From Polaribacter sp. BM10 (lineage in GTDB: Bacteria; Bacteroidota; Bacteroidia; Flavobacteriales; Flavobacteriaceae): 64,000 nt of DNA. Where the stretch lies: the NCBI RefSeq assembly GCF_002005425.1, contig NZ_CP019704.1:496001-560000 (forward strand), given 5' to 3'. This document shows, piece by piece, positions 3,001-41,895 of the stretch. The notes beneath the pieces are model-generated. The model was not told where the DNA came from and made no database searches. It worked only from the letters and a program-made list of their open reading frames with translations. A program made the position numbers and the translations under genes. The stretch's first letter is position 1; every line of letters starts with the position of its first letter.

Positions 3001-6000
3001 CGAAAACGGTGATGGAGATACTTTCTCAGCAACAGATACAGACGGTGATGGATTAGTTGATGTTTTTGATGATAACGATGATTCAGGAATAAATGGTTCA
3101 AAAGTAAACGACGGTTTAAGCCCATCTGCAAGTACAGTAACTAATGAAAGTTCATTAGAAGATGCATTTAATGATTCTGATGGAGATTTTAATCCTGGAA
3201 ATGGTGATCTTGACTACAGAGACGCTCCAATAGATGATTTAATGATCACACAAGTATATCAGTTTGATACTGAGCGTTGGATAGAAATTACCAATATCAG
3301 TAATTCAAATACTATTGCAGCCAGCCTAGTAAATGTGCAGCTATATTTAAATAAAACAGGAGATCAAACAGGGGTAACACCAGATGCTACATTAACAGTT
3401 AGTTCTGCAATTTTACCAGGTCAATCTGTTTTAATTACAAATTCAGAAAACAATATTTCTAATACAACAGCGGCAGCACCAACTGCAAGTGCAATTATTA
3501 TACAAGATGATGCGTTAACAAATATTGAAGGTGGAGACGATACCATTACAGTATCAAAAACTGGAGATGTCAGCTCATGGTCAAACCGAATTGATGTTGT
3601 TTCAAAATTAACTAACAAAACATCGTATGTAAGAATAGATGAAACGCTACAACCTAATGTAAATTATACAGAAAGTGAATGGGTTGTTTTTATAGATGAT
3701 GCGTTAGATCCTTATAATTTCTTAATTGATTCTGCTGAGAGACATCCACATGATCCGTTAATTTCAGAGATTGAAAGTTCGAACTCAGATGCAAACACCT
3801 TGTTAGGATTGCATAGAATAGAGAAAACAACAAGAACTGGTGGTAACTGGAACAATGGTTATCCTGATAGATCTAGATATGTTTCTGTTAATGAAAATTA
3901 CGAACATCAAAATGAAAGATTAAGTGCGCGTAAATTAGAGGTATTAGGTTCTAATATTCTAGCAATAGACAATCAATTGTTAGTGGTAACCAATAATTTA
4001 AATATTACCACAAATGCAGAGATTCGATTGGTTGGAAAAAGTCAGTTTGTACAAACGCATACAGGAGTTGCCGATATTACAGGTAACGGAAAAATGTATG
4101 TCGAACAAAACTCTGAACTTGCAAATATTTATAGATACAATTATATGAGTTCTCCTGTAAGAACAGTCGATTTACAAACGTATTCTATAGAATCAGTTTT
4201 AAAAGACGGTACAAACCCGGTTAGTTTTACAGGTGTTGTTGGTCAAGGAGCATCAAACATTGCAAGAGATATTAATTTTGTAGGCGGTTATGATGGTAGT
4301 ACTGGTACACCAATTAATATTGCAGATTACTGGATTTATACTTTTGCTAGCACAAAAGGACAAAGATCTAATTATGAACACAAGTATAAATCAGGAACAA
4401 TAGCGCCAACAGATGGTTATATTTTTAAAGGACCAGAAGTAGCACAAAACTATACTTTTGTTGGTAATCCTAATGATGGAGAATTAACTACAGCAGTTGG
4501 AGGAAGTGACTCTTATTTAATAGGAAATCCATTTCCGTCTGCTATGAATGCTTTAAAATTCATTAAAGACAATATCAATTCTATCGATGGTAGTTTATAT
4601 TTCTGGGATCATGTAGGCGAAGAAAATACTAGTTCTGAAACTAGCGGACATAATTACCAAGGTTATGTTGGTGGTTACGCTACAATTAATCTTTCTATGG
4701 CTGTAGGAGGTTTAGATAAACCTGCTGTTGGTGCTTTTAGCATTACCTTGCAAGCTGAAGAATCTTTATTAAATGGAACCATTTTTGAAATAGTAGAAAA
4801 AAGAATCGTTAGATTAAATACAAGTTCTAGTTATTTAGAATTTAATAGAATTACAAGAGCTACAGATGAAATAAATATTAATTACAAATCTGCTACAGGT
4901 AAGACTTTAATTTTCTTTAAAGACAATGTAGAAGTTGGTACTTATGATTTACCTGCAACATCAGGTTATGAAACATTTACTATTAACGATTGTGTTATTG
5001 TTGGTTCTACTATAAGATTTGAGTCTTTAGATTCTAATACAATTGATATTGACTTTATAGAAATGAATGACGATGATGGAGATGTTTCATGTGCACCATC
5101 AAGTGGTACAGATAGTAGTTTATTTAAAACTCCTGGAACTTACATTCCTATTGGTCAAGGATTCTTTATTGGAGGCGATTCTGACGGTGGTCCAATCGTG
5201 TTTAACAACAGTCAAAGACAATATGTTACAGAAGATAGTGGAAATGCTGTATTCTTTAAATCTGAAAGAAAAAAGGTTGTTGAGCAAGATAATGGCGACT
5301 TTAACACATTGCCTTTATTAAAAATAGGAATGGACTTTGTTAGCGAAGATAGAGAGCCATTACACAGACAAATTGGAGTTTCTTTTAGCCCGAACAATAC
5401 TTTTGAATTTGAAAAAGGTTTTGATAGTCCTATTAACGATTTAGGTGCAACGGATGTTTATTGGAAGTTTGAAAATAGTGATAACAAATATGTTATTGCA
5501 GGAATTCAAAGTGTTTCAAATTCTTTAGAGATTCCTTTTGAAATAATAATGGATTATAAAGGTGCTGTTATTTTAAATTTAGATGATATCAAAAAGGTAA
5601 ACAACACTATTTTTGTAAAAGATAAATTGAATAACAAAACGTACGACATTACAAATAACGAAGTTGTTTTACAATTAGATAAAGGAGAGCATTTAAATAG
5701 ATTCTCGATAGTATTTAGTCAAGACACTGTGTTAAGTGTTGATGATGCAAATCTAGAGAATCCAATAAATGATTTAATAACTACTTTCTTAGACAAAAGT
5801 ACTAACGAGTTTGTAATTGATAATAAAAACAATTTAAACATCGAAAATGTAGTATTATTTAACCTTTTAGGTCAAATAACAAACAGTTGGAACATTGATT
5901 CTTCTGATAGTGAAAACAGACTTAAAATTAAGAATATAGCTAACGGAGTATATATTGTAAACATTAAAACTGAAAAAGGTGTTATCAGTAAAAAGGTTTT

Positions 6001-12928: not shown

Positions 12929-13006
12929 AGCTTTTTCCTGCTTTTCGCACTCGCTTTTTTTCAGAAAAAGAAAAAAGAGCTCAAACAAACGCTACAATCA
13001 GGGCTA
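12929..13006 (+). repeat. Imperfect hairpin element at the operon end
   Basis: CCTGCTTTTCGC (12937-12948) can pair imperfectly with GCTACAATCAGG (12991-13002), 9 of 12 positions, around a T-rich/A-rich inner pair. The right end GCTACAATCAGGGCTA resembles a sequence I remember at many flavobacterial gene ends, but I could not check this and only one copy is seen here. It occupies the gap between the convergent VF530 and topB genes and may act as a terminator. Confidence 0.45.
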
Positions 13007-13070
13007 GAATTATTTGCAAACTATAATCATTTAAGTAATTGAATTAAATATCTGCAAACGATATTTTACT

Positions 13071-24732: not shown

Positions 24733-24815
24733 GGAATTTACTGGATGTTATTTTTTTTAAAAAAATGATATTTAGTAAACATGTATTTTTTGCGTTAAGG
24801 ATTGAAGTGGCATCC

Positions 24816-24883
24816 TTTTTAGTTGTCAGTTCGAGTAAATTTGTGAAGAATGAGCAAATTTTTATCGAGAACAAAACTAAAAA
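24816..24883 (+). repeat. Dispersed hairpin element, copy 1
   Basis: A 9-bp perfect outer stem (24816-24824 / 24875-24883) encloses TTGTCAGTTCGAGT (24823-24836) and TATCGAGAACA (24863-24873), with an inner AAATTTG/CAAATTT stem. The two conserved strings recur in the same order at 37359-37415. This copy fills the parE-parC gap (24733-24956), in which I see no gene. Confidence 0.6.
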
Positions 24884-24956
24884 GATATAACGTAAAGCCT
24901 GTTAAAACGCCCAAAGAATAAATAAATAAACTCTTAAACGAATAAACGTTTTTTAC

Positions 24957-29216: not shown

Positions 29217-29256
29217 ACTACCCATTTACTACCCGTCGACTACCCATAAAACACCC
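29217..29256 (+). repeat. ACTACCC heptamers at 11-bp spacing
   Basis: ACTACCC occurs at 29217, 29228 and 29239, and a degenerate fourth copy (AACACCC) at 29250, exactly 11 bp apart, so all face the same side of the helix. They lie upstream of the -7 box at 29289. This resembles an array of activator sites. Confidence 0.6.
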
Positions 29257-29288
29257 TTGTTTTCTTTAATAATTACTAACTTTTTGTC

Positions 29289-29296
29289 TAAATTTG
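29289..29296 (+). promoter_or_regulatory. Orphan promoter -7 box TAAATTTG
   Basis: Exact TAnnTTTG match on the plus strand. No plus-strand gene begins before 30845, and a terminator lies about 40 bp downstream, so it is not an ordinary gene promoter. Confidence 0.5.
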
Positions 29297-29300
29297 AATT

Positions 29301-29369
29301 ATAAGAAAAGCATTCCCCCAGTCTTTATTAATAAAGTCTTTAATTTTAAATTAGAGGCTTTATTTTTTT
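29301..29369 (+). ncRNA. Candidate small RNA after the LuxR-type gene
   Basis: If transcription starts 5-7 nt past the -7 box, a transcript of about 70 nt would contain GCATTCCCCCAGTC, a small CTTTATT/AATAAAG palindrome and a terminal hairpin ending in seven T. It contains no credible open reading frame. The 3' end overlaps the stop codon of the convergent substrate-binding protein gene. Expression is unproven. Confidence 0.4.
29332..29369 (+). terminator. Intrinsic terminator, plus strand
   Basis: A 15-bp stem (29332-29346 / 29348-29362) with two G-U pairs in RNA is followed by T7 (29363-29369). The T-run lies on the plus-strand side only. Confidence 0.7.
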
Positions 29370-30507
29370 ATGGCATTTCCTCAAAAAAAGCCAATTTATA
29401 ATCTGGTAGTAATTCTGGATTACAGATTTTTATAAGGTCTTTTAACACCAAATCTGGTCTTGTGCCTGCAAGTTCATAATAAATTACACCACCTGTTTTT
29501 CCTTTTTTTATTGTTGGAGTAAAAATTTTACTTTGCTTAAAAGCATTAAATTTCTTATAAAGTTTATTACTTTCTAAAAGTTGATCTTTCGAAGTAAAAT
29601 ATCCTGGAGCTATCCAATAATCTGCACTTTGACCTTTATCAAAAACACTTTCGAAACTCAAGGACAAACTACCTTTGCCTTTTGTGTCTTGCCATAAGTA
29701 GTTTAAATTTGCATCTTTTAAAAATTGTGCAACGTAACTTTCTCCTGCTGGTAAATTCCAAATATCTTTACTCATAATTGCACCAGACAAAACAGTAGGT
29801 TTACTTTTTGCTGATAAAGCAATTTTTTTTGCATCTAAATAATTTTTTTCGATGTTATAAAAAATACTGTCGGCCTCTTTTTCTTTATCAAATAAAACAC
29901 CAAAAAATTTAATCCATTCTGCTCTTCCTAAAGGAGTTTCTTCTAGCCAATCACCATTGTAAATAACATTTATACCTGCTTTTTTTATAGTTGTTAGGCT
30001 TTTATCAGCACTAGAAACACTATAACCAACTACTAGTTCTGGTTGAAGATTAAGAAGTATTTCTGTATTTAAAGAACTTTCTTTTCCAATCTCTATAATT
30101 TTATTTTCATCAATTAATTTTCTTGTTTTTTTTGAAGAAACATATTTTGAATAAGGAAAGCCTACAATAGATGTTTCTTCATTTAATAACTCAATCATTG
30201 GTATGTGAGTTGTAGAGGTAACTACAATTTTTTGAATTGGTGTAGAGATTACAGTTTCATTTGTGGTTATCGTTTTTTTGTTTTGCTTGTCTCTTATAAT
30301 GTATTTAAAAACGTTATTAGAGTTTTGATATGCTGTTTTAATAATTAATTTTTTTGATCCATTTTCATTAATAATGTCAAAACCTTTAGCGTATTTAATT
30401 TTACTTTTTAGGCTATAGTTTTCATCAATTTCTTTGTTTTTTTTTTGACATGATACAATTATCGATAGAAAAGTGACAAGTAATATTTTTGAGAAATTAT
30501 TATTCAT
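29368..30507 (-). CDS. Cobalamin/siderophore-type ABC transporter substrate-binding lipoprotein
   Basis: 379 residues. Lipoprotein signal with lipobox IIVSC, Cys20. Two Rossmann-like lobes of a type III (BtuF/FhuD-like) binding protein are visible: RKLIDENKIIEIGKESSLNTEILLNLQPELVVGY in the first, and KPTVLSGAIMSKDIWNLPAGESYVAQFLKDA in the second. It should hold a chelated substrate and deliver it to an ABC permease that is not in this window. The divergent BtuB-like receptor behind a cobalamin riboswitch makes vitamin B12 the likely cargo. No riboswitch precedes this gene on its own strand. Confidence 0.85.
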   Translation of the reverse strand: MNNNFSKILLVTFLSIIVSCQKKNKEIDENYSLKSKIKYAKGFDIINENGSKKLIIKTAYQNSNNVFKYIIRDKQNKKTITTNETVISTPIQKIVVTSTTHIPMIELLNEETSIVGFPYSKYVSSKKTRKLIDENKIIEIGKESSLNTEILLNLQPELVVGYSVSSADKSLTTIKKAGINVIYNGDWLEETPLGRAEWIKFFGVLFDKEKEADSIFYNIEKNYLDAKKIALSAKSKPTVLSGAIMSKDIWNLPAGESYVAQFLKDANLNYLWQDTKGKGSLSLSFESVFDKGQSADYWIAPGYFTSKDQLLESNKLYKKFNAFKQSKIFTPTIKKGKTGGVIYYELAGTRPDLVLKDLIKICNPELLPDYKLAFFEEMP

Positions 30508-30563: not shown

Positions 30564-30571
30564 TACATTTG
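30564..30571 (+). promoter_or_regulatory. Promoter -7 box TACATTTG
   Basis: Exact TAnnTTTG match about 15 bp before the cobalamin riboswitch. A TTTTC at 30541 is a weak -33 candidate. Confidence 0.6.
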
Positions 30572-30581
30572 TGCCGATTTT

Positions 30582-30746
30582 GGTTTTGATGTAAAAATTG
30601 GTTTACATCAAATTAAAAGGGAATCTAGTTAAAATCTAGAGCTGTTCCCGCAACTGTAAGCTACAAAGCTTGTAACTATTCTTTTACCACTGACATTTTT
30701 TTGTTGGGAAGGTTTGTTACAAGACGCAAGTCAGGAAACCTGCCAT
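30582..30746 (+). promoter_or_regulatory. Cobalamin riboswitch
   Basis: The core pieces of the class appear in order: AAAAGGGAATCTAGTTAAAA, then GCTGTTCCCGCAACTGTAAG, then CCACTG (30688-30693), GGGAAGG (30716-30722 region), and the B12 box GACGCAAGTCAGGAAACCTG (30723-30742). The expression platform (30747-30844) shows no T-tailed hairpin, so control is probably at translation start. It lies in front of the BtuB-like receptor. The 337-bp gene-free stretch 30508-30844 holds the promoter and this element. Confidence 0.93.
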
Positions 30747-30844
30747 TATCACGAGTTAAAAAACTTTCGGGATAAAAGTTTATGTACTAATCTATTTTCG
30801 TACACAAAATTTACCTGATTTATTGTAAATCAAATTTATTAGAA

Positions 30845-41418: not shown

Positions 41419-41450
41419 TATCAAATAGAAATCGTACAATATAATTTAAA

Positions 41451-41749
41451 GCAGGCTTATCTTATCGTCTTAATTTAATTAAGAAGGAAAGTCCGGACAC
41501 CAAAGAGTATCATAGCGGATAACATCCGTCCAGCGTAAGTTGAGGACAAGTGCAACAGAAAGCAAGTACAGTTCGGCTGTAGTGAAACCAGGTAAACTCT
41601 ATGAGGTGCAATGTCATGTATATTAGAACTTGAGAGCTACTCGCTCGATTCTAAAGGGTAGACAGATTGATTCTAAGAGTAATTTTAGAACTAGATAAAT
41701 GATAAGAGCCTTATTTATAAGGAACAGAATTCGGCTTATTAGCCTGCTT
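41451..41749 (+). ncRNA. rnpB: RNase P RNA
   Basis: GAAGGAAAGTCCGGACACC (41483-41501) is the conserved 5' core, and ACAGAATTCGGCTTATTAG (41725-41743) the conserved 3' core of class A RNase P RNA. The ends GCAGGCT (41451-41457) and AGCCTGC (41741-41747) pair to form P1, with T8 after. The RNA is the catalytic subunit that removes tRNA 5' leaders. The rest of the gene-free stretch 41261-41984 holds the candidate small RNA before it and the acnB promoter after it. Confidence 0.95.
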
Positions 41750-41895
41750 TTTTTTAATTGATTACGATATTCTTAATAAAAAATAGATTATCTTCTTTTT
41801 TATTGAATAATATTCAGCTATTTAGAAATTTGCCTTTTTTTATTTATTAATTATTGCAATCGGTTATTTATCTTTTAAAATTAATATAAAAAATG

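Follow-up and report, generated by a model that had tools for sequence, protein, structure and literature searches.

What does the DNA behind a predicted membrane-bound LuxR-type regulator gene of Polaribacter sp. BM10 do: does it end one mRNA, or does it hold a small RNA gene together with the site that switches it on? The window, that is the whole stretch of 64,000 nucleotides that we analysed (contig NZ_CP019704.1, positions 496,001 to 560,000), contains directly behind this gene a short array of ACTACCC repeats, a promoter-like box and a terminator. A sequence-only reading had proposed that the regulator binds the array and drives an RNA of about 70 nt. Its description of the site was largely accurate. 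We verified three exact repeat copies and a degenerate fourth, spaced 11, 11 and 11 bp from start to start and beginning 22 bp past the stop of the 439-aa gene, as well as a TAnnTTTG box, TAAATTTG (Table 1). Between the LuxR stop and the end of the minus-strand gene we found no plus-strand ORF of at least 80 aa, as had been claimed. A T-tailed terminator does follow the box, but its stem begins about 34 bp past it and not 40. The hairpin overlaps the end of the convergent gene, while in some relatives (for example L039, L040 and L045) a different sequence lies 3' of the unit. The degenerate AACACCC also forms the fourth copy in genomes G119 and G067.

Table 1 Features of the regulator, array and predicted RNA, in positions of the window
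Feature	Position	Strand	Basis or remark
7TMR-DISM/LuxR one-component regulator, 439 aa	27875..29194	+	Pfam, AlphaFold2 model, Foldseek
Array copy 1, ACTACCC	29217..29223	+	Sequence match
Array copy 2, ACTACCC	29228..29234	+	Sequence match
Array copy 3, ACTACCC	29239..29245	+	Sequence match
Array copy 4, degenerate AACACCC	29250..29256	+	-51 to -45 relative to predicted +1
-7 promoter box TAAATTTG	29289..29296	+	32 bp past array end; box columns over 42 aligned sites
Predicted small RNA, about 69 nt	29301..29369	+	+1 placed from the published TAnnTTTG position, -12 to -5
Conserved core ATTCCCCCAG, predicted unpaired	29312..29321	+	Genus consensus TTCCCC(C)AAT
Intrinsic terminator, 16-bp stem and T tail	29330..29369	+	Hairpin scan, fold, alignment
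Convergent gene, periplasmic binding protein (Peripla_BP_2)	29368..30507	-	Neighbour; unit does not need it

Other RNA elements were detected in the window. A cobalamin riboswitch (30564-30761, plus strand, 110.6 bits) stands before a TonB-dependent receptor gene, with a divergent Peripla_BP_2 gene, and the three together are likely a B12 uptake locus. Two candidates for the Flavo-1 RNA, which Rfam lists as an sRNA gene, lie at 24787-24908 (plus strand) and 12930-13009 (minus strand), with 50.3 and 43.5 bits against a gathering score of 42. The bacterial RNase P RNA, class A, occupies 41448-41754 (plus strand).

The regulator itself is predicted to consist of a periplasmic beta domain (residues ~23-129), seven membrane helices, a coiled coil and a GerE/LuxR helix-turn-helix (HTH, ~381-433). 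At E <= 0.001, Pfam reported 7TMR-DISM_7TM (8.2e-13), GerE (5.8e-18) and Sigma70_r4_2, the last overlapping the HTH; histidine kinase and receiver domains were not detected. An AlphaFold2 model built with 25 sequences (mean pLDDT 84.3) displayed the beta domain, seven long helices, the coiled coil and the HTH. Foldseek placed the model closest to the RetS periplasmic sensor domain (3jyb, 9.1e-5; 2xbz, 1.5e-4), these being the only PDB chains at E <= 0.001, followed at E >= 2.5e-3 by LuxR/NarL-type regulators, for example StyR, LiaR, VpsT and NarL. Residues S409, N411, T412, V413, K414, H416, K418 and Y421 of the HTH (recognition helix) were invariant in 25 regulators. The protein thus fits a 7TMR-DISM fused to a LuxR-type HTH, a one-component regulator, whose modelled sensor domain resembles RetS and whose modelled HTH resembles LiaR/NarL. 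According to the available part of PMC7695008, LadS and RetS carry a 7TMR-DISMED2 domain, to which calcium binds in LadS; calcium or a sugar-like molecule would therefore be a guess at the ligand, and a guess only.

We then looked at how specific the array is. The pair pattern with up to two mismatches had three matches in the window, a number that 0 of 100 shuffles attained. Throughout the 3,254,403-bp genome, the search for ACTACCC at 11-bp spacing found the exact pair solely at the window array (two overlapping matches; reversed control 0), which rules out a genome-wide repeat. Allowing up to two mismatches gave six genomic matches, three of them the window array; since the control gave five, the other three are at chance level. 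A phage-borne element was likewise ruled out, with no match in 50,697 phage records.

Across the genus, ACTACCC-N4-ACTACCC was present in 33 of 166 genomes (reversed control 0). All 33 belong to the 40 genomes that encode a regulator homologue at E <= 1e-30, while the array was found in 0 of the 126 genomes without one; weaker homologues are more widespread. Five of the seven homologue-bearing genomes without an exact array have degenerate arrays (G111, G070, G016, G076 and G146), behind which come a terminator and the C-run described below, or at least what remains of it. P. marinus (G066), another of the seven, carries its unit at a different place. G026 encodes only distant paralogues (27-31% identity) and has no array. 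The expectation that the phased repeat would recur beside orthologous 7TM-DISM/LuxR genes was borne out: of the 36 distinct exact arrays, 35 lie behind such a gene or what is left of its 3' end, beginning 7-58 bp past the stop that ends the regulator's HTH. The remaining array, in G013, is flanked by two regulator copies and comes after a long frame of secreted type. Beside exact arrays the regulator copy is broken in L034, L037 and L038, short at its start in L033 and at a contig end in L046. Copies with stops or split frames adjoin several degenerate arrays (G016, G076, G146) and also exact ones (G015, G060, G061 and the second G013 copy). Where regulators stand in tandem (G063, G148 and G060), the inner copies lack an array; G074 has its array between two copies, the second being without one.

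Beyond the genus the picture is one of chance. Our family search covered 397 genomes, three from Polaribacter and 394 from other genera, and among the latter the exact pair occurred in two, with one match each, against seven for the reversed control. Both matches (L076, L077) follow unrelated ORFs, and we discarded the idea of a general flavobacterial feature. Two observations concern single relatives. In an uncultured Flavobacteriaceae with a distant homologue (27% identity), ACTACCC occurs twice at 12-bp spacing after the gene (L132, near 3860-3878), perhaps an older form of the site. A full unit follows the gene of a relative titled Tenacibaculum aquimarinum (L135, near 3794-3811), where the sequence after the gene appears to match that of G101 (L054), a genome counted within Polaribacter.

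Does the array go with a promoter? Aligning 42 sites (36 exact, six degenerate) on the array end brought out the columns of a box at a single distance (T 35, A 39, two free positions, T 42, T 41, T 29 and G 28 of 42). TTTG starts 35-36 bp past the array in 29 of these sites, and 13 are without an exact TTTG there. The -33 box region of the same 42 sites gave no comparable signal. In Flavobacterium psychrophilum, the -7 box spans -12 to -5 (PMC9723704, available text). This published position puts the +1 at 29301 and the last array copy at -51 to -45, where, to judge from the spacing, it would adjoin RNA polymerase.

A relaxed pattern of two repeat copies plus TAnnTTT at the fixed distance matched 35 places in the genus (control 0), one of which, beside a glycosyltransferase-like frame (G147:C124), looks accidental. 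The window's own match runs from copies 2-3 to TAACTTT at 29277 and not to TAAATTTG, because the pattern does not admit AACACCC; G119 and G067 were missed because their fourth copy is degenerate. The window offers a second box-like sequence, TAACTTT (29277-29283), 5' of TAAATTTG. Our choice of TAAATTTG rests on its conservation in both G119 and G067; in G119, a genome of the same species, the earlier box reads TGACTTT. That is, the unit has a promoter element of its own, a TAnnTTTG-like box at a fixed place, which we regard as a predicted promoter.

For the RNA we compared 38 units (30 with exact arrays, six with degenerate ones, the weak L063 and that of P. marinus), all from one genus and some of them near-copies. 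Within 60 nt of the box, 32 of the 38 contain at least four contiguous C, compared with a mean of 1.55 and a maximum of 6 in composition-preserving shuffles (n=1000). A T precedes the run in 30 of the 32 and an A follows in 29, and its mean unpaired probability is 0.91. The six units without four contiguous C are L033, L067, L102, L104, L134 and L063. None of the 38 RNAs holds a closed ORF of more than 17 codons. Of the ~70-nt RNA containing CATTCCCCCAG that the sequence-only reading had suggested, the core UUCCCC(C)AA stood as a conserved element of a predicted ~69-nt RNA, but CATTCCCCCAG as a whole was not conserved.

The terminator hairpin was detected by script in 35 of 36 units, the exception being L053, where the T run is interrupted; the hairpins of L063 and P. 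marinus were read by eye. The consensus of 35 aligned RNAs is one 11-bp stem, in which all 11 pairs have compensatory changes on both sides and a given pair is broken by 0-8 of the 35 sequences. For the 80-nt region in the window the folding energy is -16.1 kcal/mol (z = -2.69), although a generic terminator scan of the window did not list this hairpin. No Rfam family matched the site above its gathering score, so that a known RNA family was discarded; sub-threshold matches reached 18.6 bits (versus 51), 18.4 (versus 34; E 0.011) and 12.9 (versus 100). A model of the RNA, searched over the genus, matched at E <= 0.01 in 76 of 166 genomes. Its best 20 rows were known units, and the P. marinus unit came 21st. 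Counting P. marinus, 16 matching places lay outside the known units, and an array occurred within 110 bases upstream only in P. marinus. Across Polaribacter, array, predicted box, C-run and predicted terminator thus recur together with the regulator as one unit.

The hairpin is of a type, AACCTTCA..TGAAGGTT, that looks like an ordinary terminator, and in the window the unit sits between convergent genes and the hairpin reaches into the end of one of them. It could merely end the LuxR mRNA, and that of the convergent gene, with repeats and box being incidental or part of the 3' end. This explanation has to face the fixed distance from array to box and the conservation of a C-run that a terminator does not need. 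It also has to face two cases among the relatives in which the array is found in other settings.

The first is P. marinus (G066), in which protein search found a single regulator, on contig C11, with neither array nor RNA after the gene. On contig C49 of this draft assembly, instead, ACTACCC-N4-ACTACCT is followed after 32 bp by a TAAATTTG box, then by GTCCCCCAATATT and finally by a terminator, with the same array-to-box spacing as elsewhere. We saw no 7TM/LuxR frame in the 12 kb around this unit, and the nearest frame upstream is divergent. The unit is therefore not just the 3' end of a LuxR mRNA.

The second is a sister group. In G013, G005 and G145, array and box precede large proteins with N-termini that by eye look signal-like, and three of four tested downstream proteins contain a Laminin_G_3 domain. 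A regulator tree of 31 rows covered regulators of at least 400 residues from the first M and only a minority of those beside degenerate arrays. It joined the regulators of G013, G005 and G145 to those of P. marinus and of the weak RNA, a group of five in all with support 89/83. Another 24 rows, all with the RNA, formed a group with support 100/99. The position of the array before secreted-type genes argues that it goes with promoters of two output kinds and not only with terminators. Taken together, the fixed spacing, a C-run needless for termination and the unlinked P. marinus unit contradict the notion that ending the LuxR mRNA is all that the terminator does. With the sister-group arrays they make this a very improbable account of the unit, although the hairpin may end that mRNA as well.

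Two further features of the sister group deserve mention. In L034, L044 and L072 (G013, G005), a sequence like GTAGTTTT-ACCTAT-AAAACTAC lies 5' of the array and makes the first ACTACCC copy half of an inverted repeat, which could be a dimer site or an upstream mRNA end. In L072 (3811-5786, G013), a frame that looks transposase-like by eye adjoins a fragmentary second LuxR copy.

Even a genuine array and promoter might be read by some other transcription factor, with the LuxR gene as a passenger. Most arrays adjoin the regulator, so synteny alone could yield part of the co-occurrence, and counts alone cannot separate linkage from regulation; moreover, a few LuxR copies with an exact array behind them are broken. 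Set against this are the complete lack of exact arrays in genus genomes without a homologue (E <= 1e-30), the retention of both regulator and array in P. marinus, where the two lie apart, and the varying downstream neighbours, among which the regulator stays. We therefore hold another factor to be quite unlikely.

We favour, with a probability of roughly 0.7, that the 11-bp-phased repeats are an activator site through which the predicted 7TM/LuxR protein switches on the predicted ~69-nt RNA. In this comparative sense the proposal of a 7TM-DISM/LuxR protein, an array and a small RNA was supported. An outside ligand would be sensed by the RetS-like periplasmic domain and would cause a change in coiled coil and HTH. 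With one copy for each helical turn, neighbouring HTHs would then occupy the array along a single DNA face, next to RNA polymerase, which would be recruited to the box without a conserved -33 partner. The RNA would be made from the box and stopped at its own terminator, and its exposed UUCCCC(C)AA may act in trans, G-rich stretches of mRNA being the most likely pairing partners.

Possible targets were sought through the simple complement of the core, TTGGGGGAA, which occurs 13 times in the own genome (control 4). Its density was 4.68 per Mb in RNA-bearing and 4.28 per Mb in RNA-lacking genomes (p = 0.07). This test used 131 of the 166 genomes: all 35 omitted genomes were less than 90% complete, although the RNA-bearing G067 (88%) stayed in, and P. 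marinus (G066), whose unlinked unit was found later, counted as RNA-lacking. The ratio to the reversed control did differ between the genome sets (p = 1e-4), largely because the reversed control is rarer in RNA-bearing genomes (1.49 versus 2.08 per Mb). Sense sites at translation starts amounted to 6 of 76 in five RNA-bearing genomes versus 2 of 51 in four without the RNA, a survey of 127 sites that left out two sites of G098 and G101 representing the RNA itself. We accordingly rejected targeting by the simple complement, there being no clear enrichment in RNA-bearing genomes. In the own genome, UUUGGGGGAAU lies about 30 nt past the first ATG of the frame in two large surface-protein-like genes (L151, L159). 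We favour antisense pairing with G-rich mRNA, although the signs of targets are weak.

The RNA might instead serve as a protein decoy. Its UUCCCCCAA would then bind some RNA-binding protein and be common to sibling RNAs and mRNA leaders, as GGA is in Csr/Rsm. In five RNA-bearing genomes, TTCCCCCAA followed TAnnTTTG boxes in the same sense at 8 of 21 non-coding sites on the C strand (G strand, 3 of 21); three genomes without the RNA gave 0 of 6 sites. Same-sense motifs at other loci would suit a shared protein partner instead of pairing, and TTCCCCCAA also precedes the starts of secreted-type proteins (L264, L237, L158). These counts are small and involved choices by eye. In RNA-bearing genomes 21 of 25 sites were used, with four dropped by eye, three of these as look-alike coding sequence; in genomes without the RNA, 6 of 10 were used, four identical repeats being dropped. 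Usually there is one motif per RNA, no such RNA-binding protein was identified, and a search for CsrA gave nothing. A decoy is thus doubtful, if the most serious competitor to pairing, and we keep antisense action as the preferred reading.

Some of these motif sites resemble RNA genes themselves. One possible sibling RNA is a TTCCCCCAA element with a prfA-like gene on one side and a glycosidase-like gene on the other (L161, G000:C1 near 3128852; L176; L177); in L176 (G173) it occurs in several copies with a terminator, and in the own genome (L161) a TATCTTTG box precedes it. L226 (G098) and L253 (G102) hold apparently orthologous short RNAs, in which TAnnTTTG is followed by TTTCCCCCAA and a terminator. 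Their downstream genes are similar, and a Crp-like gene lies beside L226.

Among known systems, a close likeness is to RetS/LadS-GacS/GacA-RsmY/RsmZ of Pseudomonas, which also combines a 7TMR-DISM sensor with a RetS-like periplasmic domain, a LuxR/NarL-type HTH and, as predicted here, a dedicated small-RNA output. A title cited in PMC7695008 (available text) names the RsmY and RsmZ RNAs as the exclusive route of GacS/GacA action, which we liken to the single array found in the genome of the window strain. In contrast to Gac/Rsm, there is one protein with no detected kinase or receiver, the array consists of direct repeats at 11 bp, and the RNA has a C-run and no GGA in 29301-29369. CsrA/RsmA (PF02599) was not found in the own genome (0 of 1), while the control search found PF02599 in 3 of 14 known genomes. 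By analogy, the system would work like RetS-GacA-RsmZ minus the kinase relay, but it would not be a member of Gac/Rsm, since kinase and receiver, GGA and CsrA were not found.

Heptamer sites of the NarL/LuxR family follow TACYYMT and are arranged as 7-2-7 inverted pairs. TACCCAT at array copies 1 and 3 presumably fits this heptamer, in line with the NarL-like HTH. Here, however, the repeats run head-to-tail one helical turn apart: the array has no inverted heptamer pair, and the sole inverted pair found lies in the RNA part. C-rich-seed antisense sRNAs of Gram-positives (for example RsaE/RoxS) pair with Shine-Dalgarno sequences. They share with the predicted RNA an unpaired C-rich stretch followed by a terminator, but differ in their targets, for Bacteroidetes mRNAs naturally lack Shine-Dalgarno sequences (PMC6847099, available text). 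Within the flavobacteria, the available text of PMC9723704 describes for F. psychrophilum TAnnTTTG as the main promoter box, and Rfp18 and other independent non-coding RNAs. These resemble the predicted RNA in being non-coding RNAs of a flavobacterial host that mainly uses this box. Rfp18, however, is described as strongly structured and as pairing through its third stem-loop, and that text describes no dedicated adjacent regulator, the word 'LuxR' being absent from it.

Our searches of PMC, from which subscription journals are mostly missing, turned up no prior report of such a regulator-RNA pairing. One might go further and see here a one-protein, kinase-less counterpart of RetS-GacA-RsmZ in Bacteroidetes, in which a RetS-like membrane sensor with a DNA-binding domain of its own reads the helically phased array and has the small RNA as main output. 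Polaribacter would then possess further RNAs and mRNA leaders with UUCCCCCAA, all in competition for one RNA-binding factor. Next to Csr/Rsm, this would be a second decoy system, evolved independently, a speculation that we consider unlikely. To our knowledge, few sRNAs of Bacteroidetes have known controllers. Our findings suggest that this phylum has a family of small RNAs with a regulator of their own. Which DNA the protein reads could readily be tested on the unlinked P. marinus unit and on the secreted-protein version of the sister group. Beyond that, the unit suggests that an outside signal can reach RNA-level control via a single membrane protein.
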